Origin: Phormidesmis priestleyi Ana | Lineage (GTDB): Bacteria; Cyanobacteriota; Cyanobacteriia; Phormidesmidales; Phormidesmidaceae | Direction of reading: 5' to 3' | NCBI GenBank assembly: GCA_001314865.1 | Contig: LJZR01000007.1 | Span: forward strand, 62,001 to 126,000 | DNA length: 64,000 bases | Shown: positions 5,801-62,486 of the stretch, piece by piece | Layout of the letters: every line of letters begins with the position of its first letter | Position numbering within the stretch: position 1 is the stretch's first letter | The notes under the pieces: generated by a model | Told to the model about the DNA's origin: nothing | The model's database searches: none | What the model saw: the letters and a program-made list of their open reading frames with translations, nothing else | Position numbers and translations under genes: made by a program

Positions 5801-5929
5801 ATACTCGGATTTTTTATACCCAGATTTTTTATACCTAGCTAAAGGTATATAACTGTCTATTTCAATAAACTGTCTGTTTGAATACCTAAATATTTAACCC
5901 CCTCAATGTTTGAATGCCTCAATAAATCT

Positions 5930-6094
5930 CTCTCATCCTCTAATCTCTCATCCTCTAATCTCTCATCCTCTAATCTCTCATCCTCTAATCTCTCATCCTC
6001 TAATCTCTCATCCTCTAATCTCTCATCCTCTAATCTCTCATCCTCTAATCTCTCATCCTCTAATCTCTCATCCTCTAATCTCTCATCCTCTAAT
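5930..6094. repeat. Perfect 15-bp tandem array, 11 copies
   Basis: The unit CTCTCATCCTCTAAT is repeated head to tail 11 times without visible variation and without spacers, which excludes a CRISPR array. Two of the three forward frames stay open through it (LSSSN and SHPLI), but no ribosome-binding site or sensible protein surrounds them, so I treat it as non-coding. Perfect identity suggests recent expansion. Confidence 0.95.
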
Positions 6095-6914: not shown

Positions 6915-8174
6915 ATGCAATGTACTTCTCTGTCAGATAGGCGTAGCCTACCTCTGCGCCATGTAGGCGCGACCTTCCACAAAGGGTTTTTCTGCACTAG
7001 GGTCTGTGCTAGCACTATTGTCTGCGCTATTGGCTATGCGGCTTTTGCCTGCCCAATGGGGTTAGCTCAATCCACGCCAGCAGGCGATCTGCCAGTATTG
7101 CCAGGATCGGTTATTGAGGCACAACCTAACGCCCCGATAGACCAAAATATCGTTGAAGAAGGCTTGCTAGAAGAACGTTCGCTAGATAGTTCTCCTGTCG
7201 ACAACGCTGTTGACAGGAGAACTATCGACAGCCAATATCTGTTGGGAACAGGAGATCAGGTGCTGGTGACGGTGTTCAACGCGCCTGATTACAGTGGTGA
7301 ATTTAGTGTTTTAGCCGGAGGCGCATTAAATCTACCCTTAGCAGGAGAGATTTCTGTCGAAGGGTTGACTATTCCACAGGCTTCGGAGGAGATTTCTAGA
7401 CAATTGAGCAGATACATTCGGCGTCCAAGAACAACTGTGAGCTTGTTGGCGGCGCGGCCACTACAGGTTGCGATCGCTGGTCAGGTAAACCGGCCAGGGG
7501 CATACACGCTGCCAGCTGTGGGAGAGGATGGCTCTGCAACGCCAACGCTCACTGAAGTTATTAGCCTTGCAGGCGGAATTACCCAGTCGGCTGATATTCG
7601 CAACATTAGCGTGTTGCGCCAGTCTTCGCAGCAGCAATCTTCACAGCAGCAATCTTCACAGCAGCAAAGAGAAGAGAGTATTGAGGTGAATTTATGGCAG
7701 TTGCTGCAAGAAGGACAGCTTTCGGCAGATTTGCCCTTGCAACGGGGCGATCGCATCATTATTCCAGAAGCTACGGCGCTTAGCGCCCAAGAAACGACTG
7801 AATTGGCTTCAGCGAGTTTCTCTCCATCAGCGATTACGGTCAATGTCGTCGGAGAAGTTGAAACACCTGGTGCTATTGAGCTTCCGCCCAATGCTCCGCT
7901 CAATCAGGCGATTTTGGCAGCGGGTGGCTTCAATCGGCGGGCGCGGCAAAATAGCGTTAGCCTAATTCGCTTAAACAGCAATGGAACAGTTGCCCAAACA
8001 GATGTCAATATTGACTTTGAATCGAGCGTAAATGCTGAAACCAATCCACCCTTGAGACCGAATGACACGATTGTAGTCGGCACTAATGGACTCAATCGGG
8101 TCGCAGATACGCTAGGGACTGTTTTATCGCCCATTAATAATGGTTTTGGTCTACTGAGGTTGTTTGGCCTGTAG
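6915..8174 (+). CDS. Outer-membrane polysaccharide export protein (Wza/OPX-like, SLBB domains)
   Basis: This 419-residue protein is expected to form the outer-membrane/periplasmic channel for exopolysaccharide. A hydrophobic stretch ending in CPMGLAQ (about residues 28-52) looks like a signal peptide with an unusually long N-terminal extension. The polysaccharide export domain starts near residue 107 (LLGTGDQVLVTVF) and is followed by two SLBB-type blocks. The first begins VAIAGQVNRPGAY, and the second NVVGEVETPGAIEL leads to AILAAGGFNRRARQ. A QSSQQ repeat sits between them. The gene heads the 17-kb locus and matches the chain-length kinase encoded two genes downstream. A 15-bp inverted repeat lies inside the coding sequence at 7185-7226. 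Confidence 0.9.
   Translation: MQCTSLSDRRSLPLRHVGATFHKGFFCTRVCASTIVCAIGYAAFACPMGLAQSTPAGDLPVLPGSVIEAQPNAPIDQNIVEEGLLEERSLDSSPVDNAVDRRTIDSQYLLGTGDQVLVTVFNAPDYSGEFSVLAGGALNLPLAGEISVEGLTIPQASEEISRQLSRYIRRPRTTVSLLAARPLQVAIAGQVNRPGAYTLPAVGEDGSATPTLTEVISLAGGITQSADIRNISVLRQSSQQQSSQQQSSQQQREESIEVNLWQLLQEGQLSADLPLQRGDRIIIPEATALSAQETTELASASFSPSAITVNVVGEVETPGAIELPPNAPLNQAILAAGGFNRRARQNSVSLIRLNSNGTVAQTDVNIDFESSVNAETNPPLRPNDTIVVGTNGLNRVADTLGTVLSPINNGFGLLRLFGL
7185..7226. repeat. Perfect 15-bp inverted repeat within the export-protein coding sequence
   Basis: GATAGTTCTCCTGTC (7185-7199) and its exact reverse complement GACAGGAGAACTATC (7212-7226) flank 12 nt. The transcript would form a stable hairpin in the region encoding residues ~91-104, in the low-complexity linker between the signal peptide and the export domain. 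The reading frame stays open through it. Confidence 0.9.
7623..7667. repeat. 15-bp in-frame tandem repeat (SSQQQ x3)
   Basis: Three TCTTCACAGCAGCAA units, the first with one change, lie in the export-protein gene and extend a Gln/Ser-rich loop between the SLBB blocks. Confidence 0.85.
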
Positions 8175-8304: not shown

Positions 8305-9447
8305 GTGAAAGTTGCATTAGTCCATGACTACTTAACTCAAAAAGGGGGCGCAGAACGGGTTTTTGAGTTGTTCTGTCAACATTTTCCCGAAGCCGATGTT
8401 TATACCTCGCTCTATAGTGCGTCGCACAGCATTGACCTGGGTCAGCATCGGCGAGTTCATACCACTGCTCTTCAAGCTATTCCAGGTAGCGTGAAATATT
8501 TTAGACTGCTGGCCCCTTTTTACTTTTCGGCCTTTAAATCATTGGATATGCGTGATTATGATCTAATTATTAGCAGTACTACGAGTTTTGCTAAGGCCGT
8601 TCAAAAACGGCCCGATGCGACCCATATTTGTTTTTGCCATAACATTACGCGGTTTTTGTGGGATACCGACACCTATTTACGTCAGTATCAAAGTTATAAA
8701 AAGCTCTATCCGTTTATTCGGCCTATTTTTGAGCAAATGCGGCAAATAGATCTTGAATTTGCTCAAAATCCAGATCTTTATGTTGCTAATTCAAGTGTGG
8801 TTTCAGACCGGATTAGACGGGTTTACCATCGCCCTGCTGTCACCATTAATTTCCCCATTGAGGTGGATAACTTTGTCTTTAGCGATCAAAAAGACGATTT
8901 TTATTTGGTTTCTTCGCGGCTGATTAGCTATAAGCGAATAGATATCATTGTAGAAGCCTTTAACTGGCTAGGACTACCACTGTTGGTGATTGGTACTGGC
9001 CCCGAACGGCATTATTTAGAAGCAAAGGCCTTAGATAATATTGCCTTTTTGGGTCATGTGAGCGATTTGGAGCGATCGCACCTAATGGCCAGGGCGCAGG
9101 CCGTTGTCGTTGCTGCTTTGGAGGACTATGGCCTTGTGCCGATTGAAGCAAATGTCAGCGGTACGCCAGTCATTGCTTACGGCATGGGCGGTGTGCTAGA
9201 TACCCAAGTTCCAGGTAAAACAGGCGTGTTTTTTGCGCGTCAGTCTCCAGAGGCGATTCAGGCTGCCGTTCTTAAAGCGGCTGCTATGAACTGGAACTAC
9301 AGTGACATTCGGGATCATGCGCTGAGCCATTTCTCGAAACATGCATTTTTTAAGCAGGTTGAACAAACGATTGAACAGGCTTTGCAGAAAGCTCATGACC
9401 CAACCCATGATCCAACTCATGATCAAGTGATCAATTCGGTCTATTGA
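8305..9447 (+). CDS. Glycosyltransferase family 4 (GT-B fold)
   Basis: The product has 380 residues and starts at GTG (MKVALVHDYLTQKGGAERV). The N-terminal domain has the GGAER loop of GT4 enzymes. The C-terminal donor-binding domain contains SSRLISYKRID, VIGTGPE and the EX7E-type motif EDYGLVPIE. It probably adds a sugar to the lipid-linked repeat unit made by this locus, but the sugar cannot be told from sequence. The C-terminus ends in a HDPT-HDPT-HDQ repeat made of 12-bp DNA units, likely an unstructured tail. The gene lies between the export-protein gene and the chain-length kinase, all on the same strand. Confidence 0.88.
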   Translation: MKVALVHDYLTQKGGAERVFELFCQHFPEADVYTSLYSASHSIDLGQHRRVHTTALQAIPGSVKYFRLLAPFYFSAFKSLDMRDYDLIISSTTSFAKAVQKRPDATHICFCHNITRFLWDTDTYLRQYQSYKKLYPFIRPIFEQMRQIDLEFAQNPDLYVANSSVVSDRIRRVYHRPAVTINFPIEVDNFVFSDQKDDFYLVSSRLISYKRIDIIVEAFNWLGLPLLVIGTGPERHYLEAKALDNIAFLGHVSDLERSHLMARAQAVVVAALEDYGLVPIEANVSGTPVIAYGMGGVLDTQVPGKTGVFFARQSPEAIQAAVLKAAAMNWNYSDIRDHALSHFSKHAFFKQVEQTIEQALQKAHDPTHDPTHDQVINSVY

Positions 9448-9536: not shown

Positions 9537-11939
9537 ATGACCGCTATTAGCAGTTTGCCTACCCATTCAGAGCCTGAGCTGGGCTATGGTCAATTACTAC
9601 AAATTTTATGGCGGCGATCGCCCTGGTTTGTGGGTGCCCTATCTGGCAGTGTCGGCATTGCGGCGATCACGACCCTGTTGCGATCGCCCACCTACCAAAG
9701 TTCTATGCAGTTGCTGATAGAACCCAATGTTTCGCAAGCGATTAGTATCAATGCTGATGAAGGCTCGTCTCCAGGCTCTTCTGCTGAGCTAGCGCTTGAC
9801 TATGTTACACAGCTCAACTTAATGCGCAGTAAACGCTTTGTTGAAGATGTGATTCGTCAGAATCCCAATCTTTGCCCTGGCAGCACTTTAAGTAGTCCGG
9901 CCTCAAGCGGCGATCCAGGCGGCGCTCCGAACGGCGCTCAAGGAGACAACTTGAGTGGTTTGCAAAATGGTTTAGATGCCGCCACTCAAAAAGTCTGCGT
10001 TGAGGATTTTCGATCCGCGCTAACGCTGGTACAAATTGAAGAAGACAATACCAAAACCCGCATTTTTCAAGCTACTTTTACCAGTGATAGTGCCCCTAAA
10101 GCCCAAGAGTCTTTGCAAGCGCTTCAGGAGATATACCTCCAATACAACCAAGATCAACAGGTAAAACGACTTGATGAAGGACTTGCTTTGGTCAATCAAC
10201 AAATACAGGTCTTAAAGGATGATTTGAACCGTTCTCAGCAGGCACTACAACAGTTTCGCCAGGCAGGCGGCACTATTGATCCAGCGCAGCAGTCATTGGC
10301 GGCGGCAGCCGCATTAGAACAACTCAGCCAAAATCGGCAGTTAGTACAGGCTGAATATCGCGAAGCGGCAGCTCAGCGAGCGGCCATTGAATCGGCGCTT
10401 TCAGTCGATCCGCAGCAGGCTATGCTGGCAGCGAGGCTGAGCCAGTCGGGTCGCTACCAAACTCTGTTAGATGCGCTGCAAACCAGTGAGTTAGCCCTGT
10501 CAGAACGTTTGGCTGTGTACACCGAAGAAGATCCGATCGCGCAAGACCTACAAGCACAGCGCGATCGCCAGGTTGATTTGCTACGGCAAGAAAGCCAGCG
10601 ACTGCTGGGCCCAGCCGCAGATACCGAAGAGTCTGCATTGCTCTCTAACGGGCAGCTAGGTGAGAGCGGACTAGCGCTCGTGACGGAAATGATTAATACC
10701 CAAATTCGACTCAGCGGGTTGGCCGCGCGTGAAACGAGCCTCGCCGAAACCCAACAAGTATTACAACAACAGCTCGACGCGTACCCCGCACTCATTGCCC
10801 AGTACGACCGGCTTCAGCCTGATGTAGAAACGCAGCGAGCTTCGCTGACGCAGCTGCTGCAAACCCGGCAAGAGTTGAGTAATGAAATTGCTCAGGGCGG
10901 GTTCAAATGGGCGGTGGCTGAGTCGCCCGATCTCGGTCGTAAAATTGCGCCCAACCCGAAGCAAAATTTGGCGCTAGGCGCCATTGCCGGTTTCTTTTTG
11001 GGAGGGGTACTGGCCTACAGCCGAGAAGCAATGGATACTGTTGTCCGAACCTCGGAAGACCTCACCAGACAAACAGCACTGCCGCTGTTGGGCGTGCTGC
11101 CTGAAACGGATGAGACGGCGGCAAACTTAGCGCAATGGCAGCCGTTCCGAGAATCGATTGATTTCATCTATAAGAATATTCAGCTAGGAACTGCCTTGCT
11201 TAAGGACAGTAGCAGTGGCAATTCGCTTCATGTTAATCCCAACGGTAATCCCAATGGCAATTCCAACGGCAATTCCAACGGCAATCCCAACGGCAGTCCC
11301 TTGAAATCGGTGATGGTGACTTCTGCCCTGAGCGGTGAAGGGAAAACGCTATTGGCCACTGGGCTGGCGTTGAGTGCGGCGCGATCGCAACAGCGTGTTT
11401 TACTCATTGATGCCGACTTGCGCAATCCCTCTTTGCATCATCAGCTTGGGCTCTCTAACCGACAGGGCCTCACCACTTTGCTGACCTCGGCCATTCAGCC
11501 CTTACCCGTCAGCGTCTCTTTAGCAGGCACCCAAATCGATATTCTCACAGCCGGCCCTTTTCATGAAGATCCGGTGCGACTGCTGAACTCTCATCGCATG
11601 AGAGAGCTGACAGCTGGGTTTGAAACCCAATACGACTTGGTTGTATTTGATACCTCTGCTGTGCTAGGGCGCGTAGATGCCTTGCAGGTGGCCTCATTTT
11701 GTCAAGGTGTCGTGGTAATTAGCAGACTCAATCACATTACGCAAAGTCAGATCGCCCAAGCTACGGCCATTTTATCTCGCGTAAACACATTGGGGATTGT
11801 TGCCAACAGTTGCCGTACACCCCTATCCCAGGCTAGCGGTGGAACACCCTCAAGTTTGCCAATTCCTGCTCATGCATCTTCCTATTTGTCGGATCGAAAG
11901 GGCGCAGTGCCGACGCACACTATCACCTTCCCACCTTAA
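9537..11939 (+). CDS. Polysaccharide chain-length determinant fused to tyrosine autokinase (Wzc-like)
   Basis: The start was chosen at ATG 9537 because AAAGGAG lies just upstream, giving 800 residues. The Wzz domain (residues ~15-110, first membrane span WFVGALSGSVGIAAITTLL) is followed by a long periplasmic coiled-coil region (~200-460). A second membrane span (LALGAIAGFFLGGVLAY, ~481-497) and a cytoplasmic BY-kinase domain come next. The kinase shows Walker A SALSGEGKT and Walker A' LLIDADLRNP. An Asn-Gly-rich repeat (NPNG/NSNG) links membrane and kinase parts. The final 40 residues contain only one tyrosine, unlike the Tyr-rich tails of canonical Wzc. It should control polymer length together with the export protein and the polymerase. 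Confidence 0.92.
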   Translation: MTAISSLPTHSEPELGYGQLLQILWRRSPWFVGALSGSVGIAAITTLLRSPTYQSSMQLLIEPNVSQAISINADEGSSPGSSAELALDYVTQLNLMRSKRFVEDVIRQNPNLCPGSTLSSPASSGDPGGAPNGAQGDNLSGLQNGLDAATQKVCVEDFRSALTLVQIEEDNTKTRIFQATFTSDSAPKAQESLQALQEIYLQYNQDQQVKRLDEGLALVNQQIQVLKDDLNRSQQALQQFRQAGGTIDPAQQSLAAAAALEQLSQNRQLVQAEYREAAAQRAAIESALSVDPQQAMLAARLSQSGRYQTLLDALQTSELALSERLAVYTEEDPIAQDLQAQRDRQVDLLRQESQRLLGPAADTEESALLSNGQLGESGLALVTEMINTQIRLSGLAARETSLAETQQVLQQQLDAYPALIAQYDRLQPDVETQRASLTQLLQTRQELSNEIAQGGFKWAVAESPDLGRKIAPNPKQNLALGAIAGFFLGGVLAYSREAMDTVVRTSEDLTRQTALPLLGVLPETDETAANLAQWQPFRESIDFIYKNIQLGTALLKDSSSGNSLHVNPNGNPNGNSNGNSNGNPNGSPLKSVMVTSALSGEGKTLLATGLALSAARSQQRVLLIDADLRNPSLHHQLGLSNRQGLTTLLTSAIQPLPVSVSLAGTQIDILTAGPFHEDPVRLLNSHRMRELTAGFETQYDLVVFDTSAVLGRVDALQVASFCQGVVVISRLNHITQSQIAQATAILSRVNTLGIVANSCRTPLSQASGGTPSSLPIPAHASSYLSDRKGAVPTHTITFPP
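11237..11300. repeat. 12-bp in-frame tandem repeat (Asn-Pro/Ser-Asn-Gly)
   Basis: About five 12-bp units of the type AACGGCAATCCC encode an NPNG/NSNG linker between the transmembrane module and the kinase domain of the chain-length protein. Confidence 0.85.
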
Positions 11940-12016: not shown

Positions 12017-12946
12017 ATGATCTTATCGACAGCTTTACTAAAAACCCCCAAAATTTTGCCTTTATCACGCGCTAATACCGAAAAACTCGCTTTTTCTGGT
12101 CTTGTGTGGCGACAGCAGTGGCTGATGATTCTGAGTTCTCCTTCAGCAAAGGCTTTTCCCGCTATTCCTGCACTGCAAAATGTAGCGTGGTTGCAGGCAT
12201 GTTTAAAACAATCACCCGTTAAAGCGGTGCGTTTGGATATGACCCTAGAAGAATCTGCGATTAAGACCTGTGCTGATGCCTGCATTAATACAGGTAAGCA
12301 GGTTTTTGTCCGACTGCCAGCGGCCTCCTGTCTACCCAAAGCTCGGGCGCCTTATGCCTGGTACTTCAAGCGGGTTGCTGATTGGCTGGTCGCTGCCGGG
12401 CTGATCCTGTTTTTAAGTCCGCTGCTGCTGTTATTGGCAGGGTTGGTGTACTTTAATTCACCGGGGCCTATTTTCTTTAAGCAGTGGCGGGTCGGGCAAC
12501 GCGGTCGCCTATTTCAGATCCTAAAATTTCGGACGATGCGGATGGACGCTGAAGCGTTGCACCATGAGTTAATGGCTGACCAAACAGGATTGCACAAGCT
12601 AGAGCAAGATCCTCGGGTGACCAGCGTAGGCCAGTGGCTGCGAAAATACAGTCTAGATGAACTGCCGCAACTGTTCAATGTATTGCGGGGTGAAATGAGC
12701 TTGGTGGGGCCTCGGCCGCTGGCGCTGTACGATGCCTTGCGAATTAGTGACAAAAATCGTACCCGGCTGAATGCGTTGCCTGGAATGACTGGATTTTGGC
12801 AGGTACAAATGCGATCGCACCAGCGTGATTTAGAAATTGTTAGCCAGCTAGATTTGGATTATTTAAAGACCTGGTCGCCGCTCAAAGATTTTCAGCTGAT
12901 GTTATTGACCTTTCCGAAAGTACTCAGCGGATTTGGAGCCTTTTGA
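12017..12946 (+). CDS. hepC: Initiating sugar-phosphate transferase, HepC-like
   Basis: The product has 309 residues. An N-terminal ~110-residue domain without an obvious motif is followed by a membrane span ([21 protein letters not shown]). The bacterial sugar transferase core comes next, with [20 protein letters not shown] and [22 protein letters not shown]. Enzymes of this family move a sugar phosphate from a nucleotide sugar to undecaprenyl phosphate and so begin repeat-unit synthesis. The N-terminal extension and the immediate HepA-like neighbour match the HepC-HepA gene order of the Anabaena heterocyst-envelope polysaccharide locus, as I recall it. The stop codon overlaps the next start by one base (TGATG), suggesting coupled translation. 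Confidence 0.8.
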
Positions 12947-14805
12947 TGATGATTTTAAAAAAACTGTTTAAGTCAAGCCGTTTATGGCAAGATAATGCCC
13001 TGATTTTACAAGAGGTTCGGCACTTTCGCTGGGTTGCACTCACTGCCGTTGTCGCGTCTATTTTAGCCGCTGTTTTCGAGGGCTTTGGAATTGGTTTCCT
13101 GCTCGGTTTTTTACAAAATCTTGTCGATCAATCCGAGCCCTTTAGCACTGGCATTGGCTGGTTCGACCTTTATATTTTAGGAGTCGAAAAGTCGGAACTC
13201 AATCGCCTTTATCGCGTATCTGCGCTAATTTTGCTCAGCGCCGGACTGCGAGCTGTGTTCAACTATCTGTCCTTTCTCTACATCGAAATTTCTAAAGCTC
13301 GCTTGGTAAATCAGCTCTACAAACGAATTTTTGAACAACTTCAGGCGCTGAGCCTGAGTTACTTTAATCAGGTGCGGGCGGGCGAAATTATCAACACGCT
13401 CACGGCAGAAGTTTCTCAGCTACAGATGGCCATTAACGCCATGGGATTTATTTTTGCTAAGAGCGCGCTGATGCTGGTGTATTTGGCTGTAGCGCTCACT
13501 ATTTCCTGGCAGCTGTGTGTCATGGCTATATTGTTGTTTAGCCTAGCGGCTGTAGGGCTCTCTACTTTGAACGCTCGGGTGAGAGCTGCGAGCTTTCCGG
13601 TTTCGGCTGCTCGGGGCCGGTTTGCCACCCGTGCGACTGAGCTGGTAAACGGCATTCGCACGGTGCAAATCTCTGGCTCACAAGCCTTTGAACGGCAACG
13701 ATACTACCGAGCCAGTGATGATGTCATGCAAACAACTGTTTTTGCGGTGAAGCAAATTGTTGCAATTAAGCCCCTTGCAGAAGTGGTTGCAACGGCTGTT
13801 TTGGTCGGCATTATTATTGTTGGGATGACGCTGTTTGTCGCCCGAGGAACGCTGGAGGTCGCTGCGCTGCTCACGTTTTTGTTTGTGCTTTTTCGGCTGG
13901 TGCCAGCCATTAAAGAACTCAACGGCGATTTTGCTCAAATCAGCAGCTTTAAAGGCTCTATTCAAAACATTCAATCGCTGCTCTCGACTGCGGACAAACC
14001 ATACCTCATCAACGGTTCTTTGCCGTTTCCAGGATTCAAGAATGTCCTTGAAATTGTCGCGGTAGATTTTGGCTATCAGTCGGATAGGCTCATTCTTAAA
14101 GATGTCACACTCACGATTAAAAAAGGCCAAACCGTGGCGCTAGTAGGCGCATCTGGGGCAGGAAAAAGTACGCTGGCCGATTTAATTGTGCGTTTGCACG
14201 ATCCAACTTCTGGCTGCATTTTGCTCGACGGCATCGATCTGCGGAGCTTTGATTTGTGCTCTTTGCGCAATCATCTCGCGGTGGTGAGCCAAGATACGTT
14301 TATCTTTAATGGAACGGTGAGAGAGAATATTGCTTATGGGCTGAGCGATGCTACTGAAGCAGATGTCACCCGTGCCGCCCAGTTTGCCAATGCCTTAGAG
14401 TTTGTGCAGGCGCTGCCTCAAGGTTTTGAGACTAATTTAGGCGATCGCGGCGTTAGGCTCTCAGGTGGGCAGCGCCAGCGGATTGCGATCGCCCGAGCGG
14501 TTCTACGCGACCCGGAAATTTTGATTTTAGACGAAGCCACCAGTGCTTTAGATTCTGTTTCTGAGCAACTGATTCAAACCGCTCTCAAAGCGCTGACAGT
14601 GGGCCGCACTGTGATTACAATTGCCCACCGACTCTCAACCATTACTCAGGCTGACAAAGTGGTTGTCCTAGAAGGCGGACAAATTGTCGAACAGGGAAGC
14701 TACAGCGAATTGTTGAAGCAGCAAGGCGAACTGTGGAAATACCATCAGCTCCAAATGGCGCAAGGTGTGACACCCGGCGTGACACCAGGTGTGGCGCAAG
14801 GTTAA
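12946..14805 (+). CDS. hepA: ABC exporter, HepA-like (candidate polysaccharide flippase)
   Basis: A 619-residue half-transporter has its membrane domain at residues ~1-330 (several hydrophobic spans; conserved EGFGIGFLLGFLQ) and its nucleotide-binding domain at ~360-600. Walker A is GASGAGKST, the Q-loop VVSQDTF, the signature LSGGQRQR, Walker B ILILDEATSALD and the switch AHRLST, all intact. It closely resembles Anabaena HepA, needed for deposition of the heterocyst envelope polysaccharide. No Wzx-type flippase is present in the locus, so this protein may translocate the lipid-linked glycan (inference). The C-terminus ends in an in-frame GVTPGVTPGVAQG repeat. A TTG three bases upstream is an alternative start. 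Confidence 0.85.
   Translation: MMILKKLFKSSRLWQDNALILQEVRHFRWVALTAVVASILAAVFEGFGIGFLLGFLQNLVDQSEPFSTGIGWFDLYILGVEKSELNRLYRVSALILLSAGLRAVFNYLSFLYIEISKARLVNQLYKRIFEQLQALSLSYFNQVRAGEIINTLTAEVSQLQMAINAMGFIFAKSALMLVYLAVALTISWQLCVMAILLFSLAAVGLSTLNARVRAASFPVSAARGRFATRATELVNGIRTVQISGSQAFERQRYYRASDDVMQTTVFAVKQIVAIKPLAEVVATAVLVGIIIVGMTLFVARGTLEVAALLTFLFVLFRLVPAIKELNGDFAQISSFKGSIQNIQSLLSTADKPYLINGSLPFPGFKNVLEIVAVDFGYQSDRLILKDVTLTIKKGQTVALVGASGAGKSTLADLIVRLHDPTSGCILLDGIDLRSFDLCSLRNHLAVVSQDTFIFNGTVRENIAYGLSDATEADVTRAAQFANALEFVQALPQGFETNLGDRGVRLSGGQRQRIAIARAVLRDPEILILDEATSALDSVSEQLIQTALKALTVGRTVITIAHRLSTITQADKVVVLEGGQIVEQGSYSELLKQQGELWKYHQLQMAQGVTPGVTPGVAQG
14763..14802. repeat. 15-bp in-frame repeat at the 3' end of hepA
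   Basis: GGTGTGACACCCGGC-type units encode GVTP/GVAQ immediately before the stop codon and lengthen the C-terminal tail beyond the nucleotide-binding domain. Confidence 0.7.
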
Positions 14806-16185: not shown

Positions 16186-17304
16186 ATGACGCCTACTTCA
16201 GAAACCTCTCTGGCAACACCGTCTATAACACCGTCTATAACACCGCCCATAATACTGTCTGTGACAGATCAGCCAGTCGCTGAAACCAAATCTGTTGCAA
16301 CAGTCCTCACCGAAAGACCGCTTGTTAGCGTCATTATTCCCACCTATGATCGGCTCGATTATTTGAGAGAGGCGATCGCCAGCGCAGTCTCTCAAACCTA
16401 TACCAACCTTGAAATTATTGTGGCAGACGACTGCGGCCCTGCGAACTCTAAAGAAGTGGTGGATTCATTCCAAGATTCGCGCATCCAATACAAGCGAAAC
16501 CCTACAAATCTAGGGGTGAGCCTGAATTTGGCGCGTAGCTTTGCGGCTGCCAAAGGCAAATATGTGGCGAGTTTGAACGATGATGATCGCTGGGATCAGC
16601 ACTTTTTAGAGACGCTCATTCGCCCTTTAGAAGACAATTCAGAACTGGTGCTGGCTTTTTGTGACTACTTCATTATTGATGACGACGGTCATATCAATGA
16701 GGCTGCAACCCAAAAACAAACCCAGCGAGAAGGGCGTGCTCAGCTCAGCGAAGGAATCCATCAGCCGTTTAGAAAAATTAGCGTAATGGATCAGGCCGTG
16801 TTTACTGCCGCTGCTGCGCTGATTCGCAAAGATGCCGTGAATTGGGCGCAAATATCTGAGGCGGGCGTATTTTACGATTATTACATCGCTTATTTAGCGT
16901 CTCGCTCCGGTCAGGGCGCATATTACTGCCCGCAGCGATTGTCTTACTATCGTATTCACGCCACCGGTGAAAACATGATTAGCGGTAAGCACAGTCTCCC
17001 TGCTAAAATTCGCAAGGGAAAAGCAGGCGCATTCTGTTACGAACAATTTATAGAAGATCCCAACCTTGCCGCCTACCGCACCTATTTTCAGCATGAATGG
17101 GCTCACGCTAATACAACTATTGGGATCGCATTTTTAAGAATGGGCGATCCGCAAAAAGCGCGTACCTACATTCATCGGGCTCTGCAATACCACCGATTTA
17201 ACTTGCGGACATTAGTGGCCTACAGCTTGAGCTATCTTCCTCAATCGCTGTCTCATTCTTGGGCGAATGTTTCCAATCCAGGGCTGTTTACCAGACCTCG
17301 CTAG
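16186..17304 (+). CDS. Glycosyltransferase family 2
   Basis: The product has 372 residues. A Thr/Pro-rich N-terminal tail of ~45 residues contains an ITPS/ITPP repeat. The GT-A domain begins RPLVSVIIPTYDRLDYLREAI, with the nucleotide-binding strand and loop LEIIVADDCGP and the metal-binding DXD-type motif ASLNDDDRWDQ. A C-terminal helical region (AYRTYFQHEWAHAN...) follows. Such enzymes are inverting transferases acting at the inner membrane. The gene belongs to the polysaccharide locus. Confidence 0.88.
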   Translation: MTPTSETSLATPSITPSITPPIILSVTDQPVAETKSVATVLTERPLVSVIIPTYDRLDYLREAIASAVSQTYTNLEIIVADDCGPANSKEVVDSFQDSRIQYKRNPTNLGVSLNLARSFAAAKGKYVASLNDDDRWDQHFLETLIRPLEDNSELVLAFCDYFIIDDDGHINEAATQKQTQREGRAQLSEGIHQPFRKISVMDQAVFTAAAALIRKDAVNWAQISEAGVFYDYYIAYLASRSGQGAYYCPQRLSYYRIHATGENMISGKHSLPAKIRKGKAGAFCYEQFIEDPNLAAYRTYFQHEWAHANTTIGIAFLRMGDPQKARTYIHRALQYHRFNLRTLVAYSLSYLPQSLSHSWANVSNPGLFTRPR

Positions 17305-18903: not shown

Positions 18904-20223
18904 ATGAAAGTACAAATTTTTGAACAATTTCACGGCGGGCATTACACCACCTATATCCAGCACTTGCTGCCTCAACTTTTAGCGCAAGGGCACGAAGTGG
19001 TGGTCACTCTCACCGCACAGCATCGGGCTTCCAGTGCATTTGTGCAGCAATTGTCCGCCTATGAGGAGGCTGTTCGCTTTGATACTCAGCTTGCTGAGGT
19101 TGATCCTCACATTGCGCTGAATCCTCAGTATGTGCTTCGCCATCCGCGCTCAGGTCTGGCCTCTGTTAAGCGACTCTCAAAATTAGTCACAGGCCTGGTA
19201 GAGGCGGTTTGGCGTGAGCAGCCCGATTGTTTGATCGTAACAACTGCTGATTTGCAAAACATGCTGATGGCGTTTTACAAAAGACTACGGCAGCCTTTGT
19301 TTCCGCCCCATACTCGCACAATTGGGATATTTCATTATGGCTACAGCGGCGCGGTTGAAACGGTGAGCGATCGCCTCAAAAGCTGGATCTATCAAAAAAC
19401 TTGGCAGCAGTCACCGTTCGACCATCTGTTGCTGGTAAACCCCGTCGCTTATGAATGGGTCAAACAGCACGATTCTCATCTGGCCTCGCGCATATCTCTT
19501 GCCGCCGATCCGGTGGCGTCCTTACAGCCCTTTACCCAAGCTGCCGCCCGTCAGCGTTTAGGACTGGCCACTGAAGGTCGATATATTGGCTTTGTCGGCG
19601 CGATGGATCACCGAGTGGCTATTCCTGAACTGGTGGCTGCCTACCGCAAGCTGCTGCTAGATGAGAAAACTTCGCTGCTTGGCCCATTCATCAGCGATGG
19701 CGTAGCCAATTTGCAACAAACTCGCCTACTGCTAGCAGGCAAACTACACCCCGACTACAAGACCCATATTTTGGCCCACCAGCAAGATCTTATCGACGCG
19801 GGCCGACTCATTTTAATGGATCGCTACCTTAGCGTTGAAGAACTCTGTGCAGGCTACCAGGCACTTGATCTTATTACGCCGCTTTATTACAAAAAACCAA
19901 ATCTCTCTGCCAACTTACTAAAAGCAGTCATGGCAGAGCGCCCTGTAATCGTCAATGACTTTGGCTATACCGGCATGATGACAAAAAGATTCAGGTTAGG
20001 TTGGGCCTGTGATGTCCTCAATTCAGATGATTTAACCCAAACATTGCAGCAAGCGTTAACAGGGCATATCAGCTATGCACGGCCAGAAATATTGAGACTC
20101 AAACAGTTTCATACGCCTGAAAACTACGCCGCTACGGTCCTAAAAGCCATGCATCCCCAGCCTTCGGTCTACCGACCAACACCCTCTAAATCTTGGCAGT
20201 GGGTAACTGCCGCTGCCCCATAG
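18904..20223 (+). CDS. Glycosyltransferase-like protein (GT-B, family uncertain)
   Basis: This 439-residue protein starts MKVQIFEQFHGGHYTTYI, a typical first Rossmann strand with a Gly-rich loop. The second half has IGFVGAMDHRVAIPELV, LLLAGKLHPDY and a C-terminal acceptor/donor segment (YKKPNLSANLLKAVMAERPVIVNDFGYTG in shorter pieces) like that of GT-B enzymes. The usual EX7E motif is not clear, so I call it a glycosyltransferase-like protein. The last codons and the stop lie in a 14-bp tandem repeat. Confidence 0.7.
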   Translation: MKVQIFEQFHGGHYTTYIQHLLPQLLAQGHEVVVTLTAQHRASSAFVQQLSAYEEAVRFDTQLAEVDPHIALNPQYVLRHPRSGLASVKRLSKLVTGLVEAVWREQPDCLIVTTADLQNMLMAFYKRLRQPLFPPHTRTIGIFHYGYSGAVETVSDRLKSWIYQKTWQQSPFDHLLLVNPVAYEWVKQHDSHLASRISLAADPVASLQPFTQAAARQRLGLATEGRYIGFVGAMDHRVAIPELVAAYRKLLLDEKTSLLGPFISDGVANLQQTRLLLAGKLHPDYKTHILAHQQDLIDAGRLILMDRYLSVEELCAGYQALDLITPLYYKKPNLSANLLKAVMAERPVIVNDFGYTGMMTKRFRLGWACDVLNSDDLTQTLQQALTGHISYARPEILRLKQFHTPENYAATVLKAMHPQPSVYRPTPSKSWQWVTAAAP

Positions 20224-20253
20224 AAGCTGCCCCATAGAAGCTGCCCCATAGAA
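20212..20253. repeat. 14-bp repeat x3 that duplicates the gene end and its stop codon
   Basis: GCTGCCCCATAGAA occurs three times exactly (20212, 20226, 20240). The first copy contains the last codons (Ala-Ala-Pro) and the TAG stop of the preceding glycosyltransferase, so the duplicated unit carries the stop codon. Confidence 0.95.
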
Positions 20254-20265
20254 ACAATCTTGAAA

Positions 20266-21384
20266 ATGCGAATTCTGCATCTCCTAAATCACATTCAAAA
20301 TATTGGCAATGGCATTGTCAATGTTGCTATCGATCTTGCCTGTTTGCAAAGTAAATCAGGTCATGTCGTGGCGATCGCAGCTGGGCAAGGAACCATAGCC
20401 GAACGTTGTGATCATGAAACCTACCAACCACTGCTAACAACCTATGGCGTCCACTACTACGACCTCAATCAAAAGAGAAAATTTGCCAATTTATTACAGA
20501 CGGTTGGTCAATATCGACAGATTATTCAAGACTTTCAGCCCGACATCGTACACACTCACATGATGACAGGCGTTGTGCTGGCCAAAGCACTGCGTTTAGG
20601 CAGCGCTTATCGGATTGTCTCTACTGTTCATAACGAGTTTCAGCGCAGCGCTACGCTGATGGGACTAGCCGATCAGGTCATTGCCGTTAGCGATGCGGTC
20701 GCTACGGCTATGCACCAGCGAGGTCTCCCCCGCCACAAACTAACAGCCATTCGCAATGCCACCATTGGCAGTCCCCGACAACGACCCCTACAGTCTTACG
20801 AGCCTTTGCCGCTAGTGCGACCTGCAATTACCACAGTGGCAGGGCTGACTCCTCGTAAAGGCATTGCAGATCTGATTGAAGGATTTAATCAGGTTGCCGC
20901 AACCTCAACCGCGCACCTTTATATCGTAGGAAATGGGCCAAGCAAGGCACAATTTGAGGCGCAAGCGCGGGCCAGTCCATTTGCGTCGCGCATCCATTTT
21001 GAAGGGTTTCAGCCCGAGCCTCAGCGCTATTTACGCTCGACAGATATTTTTGTTTTGGCCTCACGCAAAGAGCCGTTTGGCTTGGTTTTAGTAGAAGCTA
21101 GAGAGGCCGGATGTGCGATTGTTGCTAGCCGCGTAGATGGCATTCCAGAAGCCCTAGATGGTGGGGCCGCAGGGTTACTCACAGAGCCGGGAAATAGTGA
21201 TTCTATTGCCGCAGCGTTAAGGAAATTATTAGAAGACGCAGACAGTTTAAAGAGGCTAAAAAAACGGGCTCAGCAAAATCTTGAAGGTCTTAAAGTTGAG
21301 CGTATGAACAGTGAGGTTTTAGCTTTATATGCTTCGGTTTTGAAAAACGCTTTGGAATCGCAAAGCGAACCATCTAATGACTGA
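20266..21384 (+). CDS. Glycosyltransferase family 4
   Basis: The protein has 372 residues when started at ATG 20266 (MRILHLLNHIQNIGNGIV); a TTG two codons earlier is possible. The GT-B fold shows HTHMMTGVV in the N-domain, VAGLTPRKGIADLIEGF and VGNGPSKAQFE in the C-domain, and the EX7E motif in RKEPFGLVLVEAREAG. It is a retaining sugar transferase of the polysaccharide locus with unknown donor. The 3' end overlaps the next gene by 8 bp, which suggests a single transcript with coupled translation. Confidence 0.88.
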   Translation: MRILHLLNHIQNIGNGIVNVAIDLACLQSKSGHVVAIAAGQGTIAERCDHETYQPLLTTYGVHYYDLNQKRKFANLLQTVGQYRQIIQDFQPDIVHTHMMTGVVLAKALRLGSAYRIVSTVHNEFQRSATLMGLADQVIAVSDAVATAMHQRGLPRHKLTAIRNATIGSPRQRPLQSYEPLPLVRPAITTVAGLTPRKGIADLIEGFNQVAATSTAHLYIVGNGPSKAQFEAQARASPFASRIHFEGFQPEPQRYLRSTDIFVLASRKEPFGLVLVEAREAGCAIVASRVDGIPEALDGGAAGLLTEPGNSDSIAAALRKLLEDADSLKRLKKRAQQNLEGLKVERMNSEVLALYASVLKNALESQSEPSND

Positions 21385-22678
21385 ACAAACGGCTCTCGAA
21401 CAAATGGCTCTCGAACAAACGGCTCTTAAACAAATGGCTCTTAAACAAATGACTCTCGAACAAATGACTCTCGAACAAATGACTCTTGAGCAAATGACTC
21501 TCGAACAAATGGCTGAAGAAACTGGCGACGAGCGGTCAAAAAAGCATGTTGCTTGCTTTATCCCCAACTTGGACGGAGGCGGTGCAGAGCGCGTGATGAT
21601 TCATTTATCGGAAGGGTTTGTCCATCGTGGATGGCGGGTTGATTTGGTGGTAGACCAAGTTACGGGTGCTTATGCGAGTAAGATTCCTCACACGATAAAA
21701 CTCATTGATTTACAAGCGCGATCGCACCTTCCGGCTAAGAGAACATTGCCTCAAATTATCACCAAAACCCTAGCTCTCAGGCGCTATCTTCGCGACTATC
21801 AGCCCGATGTTTTAATCACCACCCTAGATGTTGTGAATGCTGCCTCTTGGGCGCAACGTTTAGCGGGCGTTTCCACAAAAGTTATTATGGTGGTTCAAAC
21901 TCATTTGTCTCAGCAGTTTAGCGATCGCCATTCTGCCACCGTTCAAAAAGTGCGATCGCAAATTGTAAAATACTGCTATCCTTGGGCCGATCAAATCGTC
22001 GCTGCCTCCCAAGGTGTTGCCGACAACGTTGCGGCCATGATGGATATCTCGGCTGATCAAATTCGAGTCATTTACAACCCAGTTGTGCGTCCTGATCTTG
22101 CAACTAAAGCCGCTGAACCGATAGATCATCCTTGGTTTGTTGAAGGCGAAGTGCCCGTACTGCTGGGAGCCGGTCGGCTAGTCAAGCAAAAAGACTTTGC
22201 CACGTTAGTTCGCGCTTTTGCCCAAGTGCGTCAGCAGCGGCCCTGTCGGCTGGTTATTATCGGCGATACTGACGAGCGCGAGGCCCATATCAAGCCCGCC
22301 CTAGAACAGATGATTCAGGCGCTAAACCTACAGACAGACGTGACTTTTTTGGGTTTTGTTGAAAACCCTTACAAGTATATGGCTCGCGCTCAAGTGTTTG
22401 TTTTATCTTCTATTTACGAGGGTTTTGGCAATGTGGTCGCTGAAGCGCTATCGGTCGGCACCTCTGTTGTTGCGACCGACTGCGAAAGCGGCCCTTCTGA
22501 AATTTTGGCTCAAGGCCAGTTTGGGCATCTCGTTCCTGTGAAAGACCCCAACGCTTTGGCCGCGGCCATTATCGCTACGCTAGATCAGCCGCAGCCGCCC
22601 GAACAGCTCAAAAGCCGCGCCCGAGACTTTACCATCGACACCATTGTGGATCAGTATTGCCAAGTGATGGCCTCATGA
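21377..22678 (+). CDS. Glycosyltransferase family 4 with N-terminal LEQMT repeats
   Basis: The product has 433 residues. The first ~48 residues are a run of about nine pentapeptides of the form (T/A)LEQM or (A)LKQM, encoded by 15-bp DNA repeats and predicted to form a helix or coil. The enzyme proper starts near HVACFIPNLDGGGAERVMIHL and shows GAGRLVKQKDFATLV, FLGFVENPY and the EX7E motif SSIYEGFGNVVAEALS, standard for GT4. If translation started further in, the repeat would be a leader, but the 8-bp overlap with the upstream gene favours the full length. The 3' end overlaps the next gene by four bases (ATGA). Confidence 0.87.
   Translation: MTEQTALEQMALEQTALKQMALKQMTLEQMTLEQMTLEQMTLEQMAEETGDERSKKHVACFIPNLDGGGAERVMIHLSEGFVHRGWRVDLVVDQVTGAYASKIPHTIKLIDLQARSHLPAKRTLPQIITKTLALRRYLRDYQPDVLITTLDVVNAASWAQRLAGVSTKVIMVVQTHLSQQFSDRHSATVQKVRSQIVKYCYPWADQIVAASQGVADNVAAMMDISADQIRVIYNPVVRPDLATKAAEPIDHPWFVEGEVPVLLGAGRLVKQKDFATLVRAFAQVRQQRPCRLVIIGDTDEREAHIKPALEQMIQALNLQTDVTFLGFVENPYKYMARAQVFVLSSIYEGFGNVVAEALSVGTSVVATDCESGPSEILAQGQFGHLVPVKDPNALAAAIIATLDQPQPPEQLKSRARDFTIDTIVDQYCQVMAS
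21380..21513. repeat. 15-bp in-frame tandem repeat at a gene start (LEQMT)
   Basis: About nine units of the type CTCGAACAAATGACT lie directly after the start codon of the glycosyltransferase. They are slightly diverged from each other, alternating ATG/ACG and CTC/CTT. Confidence 0.92.
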
Positions 22679-27606: not shown

Positions 27607-28635
27607 ATGACGCAGCCAATGACGCAGCCAGCAGGAGCCTTTAACCATCCATTTGGCGTCGCCTTTATCGGCAGCGGTTCAGCCAAGCTTGGGACAACGC
27701 TCAGCAATGAGCAGCTCTCACAGGTGGTCGAAACCTCAGATGAATGGATTGCTTCGCGTACGGGCATTCGCCAGCGGCATATTGCCAGTGCTGCTGATTC
27801 TATTCGGTCTATCGGTGGCGAGGCGGCGAAGCGGGCGATCGCGCAAGCCAACCTCACCCCTGCTGATATCGATCTGATTATCTTAGCCACCTCTACGCCC
27901 GACGACCTGTTTGGATCAGCCTGCCAAATTCAGGCTGAAATCGGGGCCACTCGATCTGTCGCCTTCGACATCACGGCTGCCTGCTCCGGCTTTGTCTTTG
28001 CACTGGTCACGGCTGCCCAGTTTATTCGGTCGGGTGTGTATAAAAACGTCGTGGTGGTTGGGGCTGATATTTTATCTCGGCTGACCGATTGGCGCGATCG
28101 CCGCACCTGCGTACTCTTTGGTGACGGGGCTGGGGCCATTGTGATGCAGCGTTGTGAAATTGGCGATCGCCTACTCAGCTTTGAAATGCACAGCGATGGC
28201 AGTATGAACGACTGCCTCAACGCGGGTTATCAAACCGAGTCTGTTGCTTTAATTGACGACATCACCACTCAAACAGGTCACTTCAACACAGTGACCATGA
28301 ATGGCCGAGAAGTCTATCGCTTTGCGGTCAACCGAGTTCCTGAAGTCCTTGAAAAATCGCTTTTCCATGCAGGCCTATCGACCGACGATATCGACTGGCT
28401 AATTTTGCACCAGGCGAATCAGCGCATTTTAGACGCGGTCGCCAAGCGCTTAGGCATTCCCGCCGAAAAAGTGGTGAGCAACATGGCCAAACATGGCAAT
28501 ACTGACGCCGCTTCTATTCCCATTGCGCTAGATGAATGGGTTCACGCCGGTAAAGTAAAGTCGGGCGATACACTGGCGCTTTCTGGCTTTGGGGCCGGGC
28601 TTTCTTGGGGCGCTGCGATTTTAAAGTGGGGTTAG
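27607..28635 (+). CDS. fabH: Beta-ketoacyl-ACP synthase III
   Basis: FabH condenses acetyl-CoA with malonyl-ACP to start fatty acid synthesis. The catalytic triad is visible: C126 in TAACSGF, His in LILHQANQRI and Asn in KHGNTDAASIP. The length of 342 residues is usual. The first codons are a 12-bp duplication (ATGACGCAGCCA twice), so translation could begin at either ATG (27607 or 27619). It lies between plsX and fabD. The 3' flank holds a seven-copy 16-bp repeat. Confidence 0.97.
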   Translation: MTQPMTQPAGAFNHPFGVAFIGSGSAKLGTTLSNEQLSQVVETSDEWIASRTGIRQRHIASAADSIRSIGGEAAKRAIAQANLTPADIDLIILATSTPDDLFGSACQIQAEIGATRSVAFDITAACSGFVFALVTAAQFIRSGVYKNVVVVGADILSRLTDWRDRRTCVLFGDGAGAIVMQRCEIGDRLLSFEMHSDGSMNDCLNAGYQTESVALIDDITTQTGHFNTVTMNGREVYRFAVNRVPEVLEKSLFHAGLSTDDIDWLILHQANQRILDAVAKRLGIPAEKVVSNMAKHGNTDAASIPIALDEWVHAGKVKSGDTLALSGFGAGLSWGAAILKWG

Positions 28636-32172: not shown

Positions 32173-32285
32173 CCCCTTAGCCTGACTGATGACTGCCATT
32201 TTTAAAAATATCTATTGATATCCGATATCATTAGCGCTACAGTAATCTTTGATACATTTTTAAGCCCCCTATACAATCAAACATC

Positions 32286-32534
32286 ATGGTCAAGAAATTA
32301 AAGCCCGTTGAACTTTTTCTCTCTTTAGGTTTGGTCGCATCGTTAGCGACAGCCTGTGGCCCTACAGGCGGTGACGAAGTGACTGAGCCCCTAGAAGGTG
32401 ACGCAGTTGAAAATGTGGAAGAAATGCCTGAAGAGGAAGTAATGCCCGAAGAGGAGGTAATGCCTGAGACTGAAGACGACGAAGGTGGCGAAGGCGGCGA
32501 AGGTGGCGAAGGTGGCGAAGGTGGCGAAGGATAA
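32286..32534 (+). CDS. Small acidic lipoprotein with GGE repeats
   Basis: The product has 82 residues. The signal peptide (MVKKLKPVELFLSLGLVASLATAC) ends in a lipobox LATAC, so Cys24 should be lipidated and the mature protein anchored to a membrane. The mature part consists almost entirely of Glu, Asp, Gly and Pro, with EEVMPE repeats and a terminal run of five GGE units, and has no predicted fold. The strong net negative charge may bind cations or act as a spacer (speculation). A hairpin terminator lies ~80 bp downstream, supporting a real transcription unit. Confidence 0.7.
   Translation: MVKKLKPVELFLSLGLVASLATACGPTGGDEVTEPLEGDAVENVEEMPEEEVMPEEEVMPETEDDEGGEGGEGGEGGEGGEG
32484..32531. repeat. 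9-bp in-frame repeat (GGCGAAGGT), about 5 copies
   Basis: Tandem 9-bp units at the 3' end of the lipoprotein gene encode Gly-Glu-Gly tripeptides up to the stop codon. Confidence 0.9.
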
Positions 32535-32572
32535 GCGCTATTAGAAGAGTCGAGTTTAGGCTTGTCTAGTCT

Positions 32573-32614
32573 GTTGATTGACAGTTGATTGACAGTTGAT
32601 TGAGAGTTGATTGA
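32573..32614. repeat. 11-bp tandem repeat, 4 copies
   Basis: GTTGATTGACA/GTTGATTGAGA units lie between the lipoprotein gene and its terminator. Confidence 0.8.
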
Positions 32615-32615
32615 G

Positions 32616-32645
32616 ATAGGTGGGGAAGTTCGCTTTCCCACCTAT
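32616..32645 (+). terminator. Hairpin terminator after the lipoprotein gene
   Basis: ATAGGTGGG (32616-32624) and CCCACCTAT (32637-32645) form a 9-bp stem with further partial pairing (GGAAG/TTTCC) inside. ATTATTTT follows. It fits an intrinsic terminator for the plus strand and could also stop minus-strand transcription of the phosphatase gene. Confidence 0.7.
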
Positions 32646-36014: not shown

Positions 36015-36442
36015 AGGGCGCTTTACCAAAGTGAGGTTAAAGTGTGAGGTTAAAGTGAGGCTGTTGTGTCGCTTTTGCAGCTACACTGGTGCAACTAGTT
36101 GCAGCCAGTTGCATGCAGCCAGTTGTGGCCACACTTAGATACTGGTTTAACAACTGTTTCAACTTTAGCCTTCTACCTAGAGGCAGGCATCCCTATGAAA
36201 TATGGAGAGAGCTTGGCTGATATTCTCACCGGCCTCCAAGCTGCTGATCTCCCAACTGTTGATCTCCTAACTGCTCTTTAACCAACCTGCTCTTTAACCA
36301 ACCTGCTCTTTAACCAACCTGCTCTTTAACCAACCTGCTCTTTAACCAACCTGCTCTTTGAACTAATCTCTAAACTTAAGAAGGCAGCATGAAGTCACCC
36401 TGAACCAACAGGGTTTGGCAGCTTCGGTTTGCGGCCGCTGGT
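36015..36442. other. Gap with three sets of tandem repeats
   Basis: No gene is seen in this 428-bp interval. It holds GTGAGGTTAAAGT units (about 36032-36060), GCAGCCAGTTGCAT-type units (about 36096-36124) and the six-copy 16-bp array at 36271-36366. Confidence 0.7.
36271..36366. repeat. 16-bp tandem array, 6 copies
   Basis: CTGCTCTTTAACCAAC is repeated five times exactly, plus a sixth diverged copy ending CTTTGAACTAA. There are no spacers. The array lies in non-coding DNA. Confidence 0.93.
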
Positions 36443-49469: not shown

Positions 49470-50102
49470 CTAATCCTCATCCTGAGGAGGCCAGTCATCG
49501 TCGGTATCTTCTTGGGAGACTTCAGGCGCTGCGCTGCTGCTCATACTTTGACTACCTGCGCCTCGACTGCTGCCTACCGTCTGAGTGCTTGGCTGAGTAC
49601 TGACCTGAGGCGAAGGCCGATCAAATGCGCTAACCGTGGGTGGGGTTGAGGCTGAAGCGGATGTCGAAGGGGACGCTGTAGCAGGCGTCGCAGGAGGCTG
49701 GGCAGCGGGCTTAATGACGTTGGCTGTGCGTTGAACGGCGGGCATTTCTTCGGGCTCAATGCCGAGCTGCTCGCGCGCTTGATTCAAGAGGTAGGCAATG
49801 CCAGTGCGTCCGGTGTCAAGCAGGCTTTTGCCCTTGTCGGTAATAGACTGGGCGTCAGTAGGGGTGCTTGCTGCGTCGCCAGAGCTGTCTATCCATTCAC
49901 GGATGCTTTTGCCAGCACGGACGGATGTATCGCTAAACCAAGCACCGAATACAAATACTGAGCAAATGATCAGCCAAATCAGCTGGGAAATTTCTTTAAG
50001 GATATTGCCGGTTAGATTCAATGCCTTTTGGTAGGTTTCAGCTGTTTCATCAGAAAACAGCAAATCCCATAGCTCGGAGGCTTTTATTTGAATGCGATCC
50101 AT
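49470..50102 (-). CDS. Single-pass membrane protein with Ser/Pro/Thr-rich tail, unknown function
   Basis: The start was placed at ATG 50102 (MDRIQIKASELWDLLF), giving 210 residues. An ATG 54 bp upstream would add a VKPIA-VKPIA repeat encoded by 15-bp units. An N-terminal helix precedes one hydrophobic span (LIWLIICSVFVFGAWF). Next come a short helical region (AYLLNQAREQLGIEPEEM) and ~100 low-complexity residues rich in Pro, Ser, Thr and Ala, ending in the acidic DDDWPPQDED. No family was recognised. Confidence 0.6.
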   Translation of the reverse strand: MDRIQIKASELWDLLFSDETAETYQKALNLTGNILKEISQLIWLIICSVFVFGAWFSDTSVRAGKSIREWIDSSGDAASTPTDAQSITDKGKSLLDTGRTGIAYLLNQAREQLGIEPEEMPAVQRTANVIKPAAQPPATPATASPSTSASASTPPTVSAFDRPSPQVSTQPSTQTVGSSRGAGSQSMSSSAAPEVSQEDTDDDWPPQDED

Positions 50103-50195
50103 AGGTTTAACGGCGATAGGTTTAACAGCGATAGGTTTAACAGATGATTGAATCAAGCCGGTGGGTAATGGGCCTCAGATGAGTTGTCGGCTGAG

Positions 50196-61817: not shown

Positions 61818-62486
61818 ATGTTGGCTACTTTCTTTCAACGACTCGCTTCGACACTTCAAACGTTCACTGGTCGAGTTGTCGGGAGCTTTCTCTTCCCGTT
61901 CCGCTTGCTGTTCCGCTTGCCATTCCGCTTGCCATTCCGCCTGCCGATGAGTCTGCTACTGATCGGATTGTTGACAATTGCGAGCCTTGGCCTTGGCAGT
62001 GCGCCAGCTCTAGCTGGGCTTGACGATGACAACTACGACGGTAATATCTTTGCTTTGTATGCAGGCAACGGATCTATTGTGCCGCCTAAGTTTTCACTGG
62101 CTCAGTCGCTCAAGCAGGACAAACCCACCCTTCTCGTTTTTTATGTCGATGACAGTCGCGACAGCAAGCGGTTTTCCTCTGTGATTTCTCAGCTGCAAGC
62201 GCCCTATGGCCGAGTTGCTAATTTTGTTGCCGTTGCTGCCGACTCTTTCCCTGTTAAAGATCACTACGAACCCACAGAGCCCGGATATTACTTTAAAGGT
62301 GCTGTTCCTCAAACGGTGCTGTTTGACCGTGAGCACAGCGTGATTCTAAATGAGGTCGGCCAGGTTCCTTACGAAAAGCTAGATGATAAAATGCGCGAAA
62401 TTTTTGACCTGCTGCCTCGTACAGAGTCTGTAGAGCTGCGCCGTCGCCCTATTAACGAAGTCAGCGGTGAGCTTGTCGCTGAATAG
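61818..62486 (+). CDS. Thioredoxin-fold thylakoid protein (photosystem I accumulation factor-like)
   Basis: The product has 222 residues from ATG 61818; a TTG further upstream is possible. The N-terminus contains a repeat FRLPFRLPFRLP (15-bp DNA units) before the membrane-targeting segment LLLIGLLTIASLGLGSAPALA. The lumenal/periplasmic domain shows a thioredoxin-like pattern (DKPTLLVFYVDDSRDSKRF, then QTVLFDREHSV) without a CxxC motif. The pattern resembles the family annotated as a thylakoid photosystem I accumulation factor. Assignment is by recall and moderate. Confidence 0.7.
   Translation: MLATFFQRLASTLQTFTGRVVGSFLFPFRLLFRLPFRLPFRLPMSLLLIGLLTIASLGLGSAPALAGLDDDNYDGNIFALYAGNGSIVPPKFSLAQSLKQDKPTLLVFYVDDSRDSKRFSSVISQLQAPYGRVANFVAVAADSFPVKDHYEPTEPGYYFKGAVPQTVLFDREHSVILNEVGQVPYEKLDDKMREIFDLLPRTESVELRRRPINEVSGELVAE
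61896..61945. repeat. 15-bp in-frame repeat (FRLP) in the signal region
   Basis: TTCCGCTTGCCA-type units encode repeated Phe-Arg-Leu-Pro directly before the hydrophobic targeting segment. Confidence 0.8.

Follow-up and report, generated by a model that had tools for sequence, protein, structure and literature searches.

The stretch of DNA analysed here, 64,000 nucleotides from Phormidesmis priestleyi Ana (contig LJZR01000007.1, positions 62,001 to 126,000 of the forward strand) and hereafter called the window, contains a polysaccharide cluster in which Pfam recognizes Poly_export, Wzz-like, Bac_transf, ABC and Wzy_C-like genes together with several glycosyltransferase genes. Two glycosyltransferase ORFs follow each other in this surrounding with a short overlap, and the downstream one opens with a tandem array (Table 1). 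The downstream ORF contains both GT-B domains, PF13439 (Glyco_transf_4) and PF00534 (Glycos_transf_1), above cut-off and is thus a member of the GT4 family, with a homology core that begins from about residue 57 (21545). The array consists of 15-bp units with 88% matches and a TRF score of 180, and in the frame of the enzyme it is read as MTEQT-ALEQM-ALEQT-ALKQM-ALKQM-(TLEQM)x4-AEETG. Seven in-frame ATGs lie inside the array, and together with that of the ORF itself there are eight, spanning 21377 to 21511. The upstream glycosyltransferase gene terminates with a TGA codon at 21382-21384, and the first base of the array falls within this codon. When the window was shuffled 20 times with its dinucleotides preserved, no array exceeded a TRF score of 52, and a single array in all 20 shuffles together reached 50. 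The array therefore has head-to-tail units in the range of approximately 10-100 bp and exceeds chance, as is required of a minisatellite. The N-terminal LEQMT run of 15-bp units, which a preliminary description had read from the letters of this DNA, is confirmed by TRF, by the frame and by the shuffles.

Table 1. Coordinates of the glycosyltransferase pair, its array and other repeats at gene ends (window positions)
Feature	Position	Strand	Description	Basis
Tandem array	21383..21514	+	unit (A/G)CTCTCGAACAAATG, 8.8 copies, (T/A)LEQM in GT4 frame	TRF
GT4-type glycosyltransferase ORF	21377..22678	+	433 aa, array at 5' end	Pfam, homologue alignment
Upstream GT4-type glycosyltransferase ORF	20260..21384	+	stop codon adjoins array	ORF calls, Pfam
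Overlap of the two glycosyltransferase genes	21377..21384	+	8 bp, ATGACTGA	downstream start and upstream stop
fabH start duplication	27607..27630	+	12 bp x 2, MTQPMTQP; 5 bp past stop of FA_synthesis (PlsX-type) gene	TRF
Array in N-terminal region of GT2 ORF 16186-17304	16215..16260	+	12 bp, TPSITPSITPP	TRF
Array starting ORF 49470-50156	50101..50143	-	15 bp x 2.9, protein start VKPIAVKPIAVKP	TRF
Array at C-terminal end of ABC transporter ORF 12943-14805	14761..14802	+	12 bp, TPGVTPGVAQG	TRF
Array at C-terminal end of GT4 ORF 8305-9447	9394..9424	+	12 bp, DPTHDPTHD	TRF
Array from preceding gene's last codons (stop 20221-20223) into gap	20212..20253	+	14 bp x 3, perfect	TRF

The terminal repeats that the same description had assigned to fabH, a GT2 enzyme, a membrane protein at 49 kb, 'hepA' and a GT4 enzyme at 8.3 kb are all real on the sequence. 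For the 49-kb ORF the hexamer-based start caller places the start beyond the array (50102), and the ORF called 'hepA' has the Pfam domains ABC_tran/ABC_membrane, so that it is named here only as an ABC transporter. This list of terminal repeats is selective. In-frame arrays also lie in gene interiors of the window, at 7623-7667, 11235-11300, 46227-46317, 58266-58314 and 61899-61945 and with five more in 88-1356, and there are many between-gene arrays of any period.

Arrays of this kind are abundant in the whole genome. At a TRF score of 50 or more, 300 arrays were found in a 400-kb sample and 1 after the sample was shuffled; the periods of the 300 are mostly 11-18 bp with peaks at 12 and 15. 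In a pooled 864 kb we counted 596 arrays, of which 137 are perfect from copy to copy, and these have 596 distinct units; extrapolation to the genome gives approximately 4,100. The density of about 63-74 per 100 kb (two samples) can be compared with 14-35 per 100 kb in six genus relatives (20-80 kb sampled each) and 0-15 per 100 kb in sixteen other genomes of the family and beyond. Thus the repeat load is a quantitative trait that is high here without being confined to this genome. One genome of another family in the same class (G030; L076, L096, L097) carries 31 arrays in 60 kb, that is 52 per 100 kb, and given this example a high load may have originated more than once. Loss of repair genes was considered as a cause and rejected: this genome and its six genus relatives all possess the 5' exonuclease domain of polA, mutS, recJ, sbcD, xseA and recG, the six genes that the test covered. 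The higher array count here than in relatives is therefore not explained by the tested repair genes.

In order to place arrays relative to genes, we used our own hexamer-based gene calls and starts, 358 genes in the first sample and 317 in a second that was held out, and an array was taken as coding when at least 90% of it lay inside a gene, those partly inside (61 + 38) being set apart as edge cases. Among coding arrays, 107 of 111 and 83 of 85 (190/196 pooled) have a period that is a multiple of three, whereas among intergenic ones 69 of 173 and 49 of 128 do (118/301 pooled; Fisher P 3e-45), and the reading-frame filter inside genes is thus nearly complete. Differences between copies, counted at the three codon positions after exclusion of arrays with a copy mismatch above 0.35 as likely indel-shifted, number 144, 113 and 171 in gene-interior arrays (P 0.003). 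The third-position excess is absent in N-terminal arrays (24, 22, 32; P 0.34), which are a small set, and the differences in C-terminal arrays (34, 32, 45) are not significant.

It had also been proposed that protein termini are growth sites for repeats. Most of this claim finds no support, as there is no clear N-terminal excess and the profile over gene deciles is flat (13, 10, 13, 7, 8, 18, 10, 10, 8 and 14; n=111); what stands is a modest enrichment at C-termini. Up to 60 bp from the called start there are 10 of 111 and 8 of 85 arrays, where random placement predicts 6.6 and 5.4 (P 0.13 and 0.17); at the same distance from the stop, inside genes, there are 14 of 111 and 11 of 85, where it predicts 6.5 and 5.2 (P 0.007 and 0.018). 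Pooled, 25 C-terminal arrays were seen and about 12 expected, and 18 N-terminal ones, again with about 12 expected. N-terminal arrays are carried by 8 of the 58 genes that have a same-strand upstream stop at -60 to +35 bp, compared with 10 of the 617 remaining genes (odds ratio 9.7, P 4e-5), a test that is partly circular, as calling an array coding also shifts the called start toward the upstream stop. The GT4 array is unambiguous as a post-stop array, since it starts within the upstream stop codon, and fabH is a smaller example of the same arrangement.

The hot spot for arrays is the non-coding DNA immediately past stop codons, in both samples. For genes longer than 300 bp, arrays cover 24.5% (first sample) and 20.4% (held-out) of the bases from +1 to +60 after stops, and 9.6% and 6.8% of the 60 bp before starts. 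Of the arrays in co-directional gaps, 82 of 125 occupy the half next to the stop (P 6e-4), repeated in the held-out sample with 70 of 88 (P 2e-8). Arrays that cross a stop outnumber those crossing a start by 90 to 14 (P 9e-15); of the 90, 79 reach into the gene by one unit at most, and 25 have a period divisible by three, which is no enrichment. Counted by gene, 199 of 629 have an array in the 60 bp that follow the stop and 98 of 629 in the 60 bp that precede the start. Convergent gaps are covered to 23.7, 24.3, 16.0 and 23.1% per 50 bp over about 200 bp, then erratically on few bases; in divergent gaps, coverage is about 8% close to starts and rises to as much as 40% midway in a few long ones. 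Seeding at stops and selection against arrays near promoters are not separated by these data. As a candidate function, intrinsic termination was rejected, because array-rich post-stop stretches fold no more strongly than array-free ones: the mean MFE of 80-nt stretches is -14.5 with at least 40 array bases (n=93) and -15.8 with none (n=252), stretches with 1-39 array bases or more than 10 bases of overlap with another gene being left out, and our own simple scan found 1 and 4 terminator-like stretches, respectively.

Comparison with homologues indicates what the genes look like when the repeats are lacking. In a search of 38 genomes, including this one, the better matches to the GT4 enzyme start at query residues 47-58 and one more distant match at 35. 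The array is absent from the start regions of 15 homologous loci in other genomes and from those of the 8, among 19 homologous loci in the named collection, whose start regions were inspected; the inspected homologues start at the core or shortly before it. The best named homologue is from Microseira wollei (44% identity), and the named set is mixed, with several other cyanobacteria; these homologues and the gene content point to a cyanobacterial genome. For fabH, every best alignment among the matches in 19 other genomes begins at query residue 9-18, and the start duplication is absent from the homologues inspected (N-termini of 17 of the 19); two homologues from the genus start with MAQQTYGV and MTQQTYGV where the protein here has MTQPMTQP. 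In-frame expansions at protein ends do occur, as had been described, and the inspected homologues are without them. In the sampled genus stretches a homologue of at least 50% identity is available for 43 of 675 genes, and 11 of these 43 bear 16 arrays; in 9 cases the homologue is one unit or more shorter, in 1 it is of equal length, and 6 are other cases (two of them longer in the homologue). Several of these alignments match partial domains, and the comparison is a weak one.

Based on these results, we consider that the GT4 array is probably an ordinary minisatellite in an unusually repeat-rich genome, the product of a genome-wide slippage-type tandem duplication followed by a selection filter. 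Short direct repeats that misalign while DNA is being synthesized would duplicate the local sequence, and some of the resulting arrays would grow further. Perfect two-copy duplications extend on average 4.27 bp beyond two units, compared with 0.73 bp in simulated random-site duplications, which fits misalignment at short direct repeats, and decayed third copies could contribute to it. Selection would set where duplications persist, within genes nearly only as multiples of three. A duplicated stop codon would leave the protein unaltered, because the first copy still terminates it, and arrays could thus accumulate across and past stops; the 25 of 90 stop-crossing arrays with a period divisible by three and the 79 of 90 that reach into the gene by at most one unit are consistent with this. 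In tightly packed operons the post-stop stretch is also the start of the next gene, and N-terminal arrays would follow from it. The GT4 array would then be the post-stop array of the upstream glycosyltransferase, placed at the gene overlap; where two genes overlap, an array that starts within the upstream stop necessarily opens the downstream gene. Changes in unit count would be tolerated at this place, as the 15-bp period is in frame and most units supply an ATG near the enzyme core, so that any unit count leaves a start close to it; this tolerance, probably the reason for the location of the array, would hold whether translation begins at 21377 or at a later ATG. Arrays of this kind presumably still vary in copy number today.

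Within this general scheme the stops themselves could have a more active part. Translation stops would be the origin of new tandem duplications here, with ribosome-free nascent RNA (e.g., in R-loops) provoking local re-replication, so that minisatellites continually arise at gene 3' ends and, in packed operons, some of them turn into new ends of the protein encoded next; we regard this as unlikely. Two readings that give the repeat itself a role appear somewhat less likely still. The repeat could be translated into a helical N-terminal arm through which the enzyme is tethered or oligomerises. No stop codon interrupts the array frame, an ATG precedes the array, and an AlphaFold2 model (12-row alignment) predicts a single helix for residues 2-47, with pLDDT block means of 74-91 over residues 1-40 and a low-confidence linker at 47-50 joining the helix to the GT fold. 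Helix-prone residue repeats, however, tend to be modelled as confident helices, and the model demonstrates neither translation nor function of the repeat; moreover the inspected homologues begin at or near the core without an array, and the N-terminal arrays (a small set) lack the third-position excess of gene interiors. Such a predicted arm is quite improbable. About equally doubtful is a 5' leader or reinitiation zone in which several ATGs, and the number of units, would tune the coupling of the two glycosyltransferases. The eight ATGs, the overlap ATGACTGA and the duplicated ATG of fabH are compatible with such a zone, but only 5 of the 18 listed N-terminal arrays contain an in-frame ATG.

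Protein termini as preferred growth sites, making variable tails of adaptive value, would account for the C-terminal excess, about 2-fold in both samples, and for an N-terminal one of about 1.5-fold that is significant in neither, and the genes first shown belong to a polysaccharide cluster where variation could matter. The even spread over deciles speaks against it, the in-gene density, termini included, is far below that of gaps adjoining stops, and the housekeeping gene fabH behaves alike; we hold this explanation very unlikely. An assembly artefact might be suspected in a draft genome of 136 contigs, yet neither the contrast of 190/196 with 118/301 in periods divisible by three nor the bias toward stop codons is expected from assembly errors, and 596 distinct units argue against it as well, which leaves it only a minimal probability. 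Three known classes of repeat were also tried for the GT4 array and rejected. Phase-variation contingency loci are those where a change in copy number switches the frame or the promoter spacing, whereas here, as far as the frame is concerned, a 15-bp period preserves it and the array itself supplies further ATGs. STRR heptanucleotide repeats have a 7-bp unit; the unit here is 15 bp, and the genome-wide period peaks are 12 and 15 bp. A dispersed or mobile repeat does not apply either, as a pair of units, searched with up to three mismatches, has no second site in the 5.9-Mb genome and all 596 of the sampled 596 units are distinct.

The preferred reading, tandem duplication filtered by selection, places the arrays close to bacterial minisatellites or VNTRs, which they resemble in having tandem units of 11-18 bp, a local origin and in-frame position within genes, and from which they differ in load (about 63-74 per 100 kb, with 14-35 in genus relatives) and in the strong post-stop bias. 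In species alignments, according to the available text of one study, 35-55% of microdiversity loci are intragenic and leave the reading frame unperturbed (PMC2884548), and units divisible by three are likeliest inside coding regions, as recounted in the accessible part of PMC4679880. Another cyanobacterium rich in short arrays is Halomicronema hongdechloris, for which the text available to us gives 722 tandem repeats with a median unit of 14 bp and 4 copies on average (PMC6416890); by our own division over its 5.57-Mb scaffold this is approximately 13 per 100 kb, about one fifth of the density here, although detection settings may differ. The heptanucleotide and TAACTGA direct repeats of cyanobacteria and Beggiatoaceae are likewise short direct repeats near gene ends, and as far as that text goes they have one fixed 7-bp motif located mostly just upstream of starts in the main genome studied (PMC4679880), unlike the arrays here, where no two sampled arrays share a unit and the stop side is favoured. 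In the open-access literature as available we found no description of a post-stop enrichment of minisatellites, which is weak evidence. With respect to these sources, elements of this type and their frame filter are already known, and this genome adds the density and the post-stop bias. The GT4 array alone is ordinary; of note are the approximately 4,100 minisatellites estimated by extrapolation, the roughly one gene in three with a post-stop array and the almost complete frame filter, which make this genome well suited, as a natural system, to quantifying the effects of duplication and selection on gene ends. They also call for caution, since some N-terminal extensions annotated for genes in operons may in fact be repeats of the post-stop kind.

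Several other arrays in the window deserve mention. The strongest, at 5929-6094, is a perfect 15-bp x 11.1 array of TCTCTCATCCTCTAA with a score of 332, located in the approximately 1.1-kb gap that follows the gene for DNA polymerase III alpha, and a perfect intergenic 16-bp x 5.6 array at 36271-36359 adjoins a 15-bp array at 36236-36275. Two ORFs on the reverse strand have no Pfam match and contain several arrays each. The five separate arrays in 88-1356 (periods 12, 15 and 21) belong to one of 422 aa, a repeat-rich protein, and the other, of 134 aa at 32237-32641, has arrays of 9, 18 and 11 bp, the last of which suggests that its 5' part may be non-coding.
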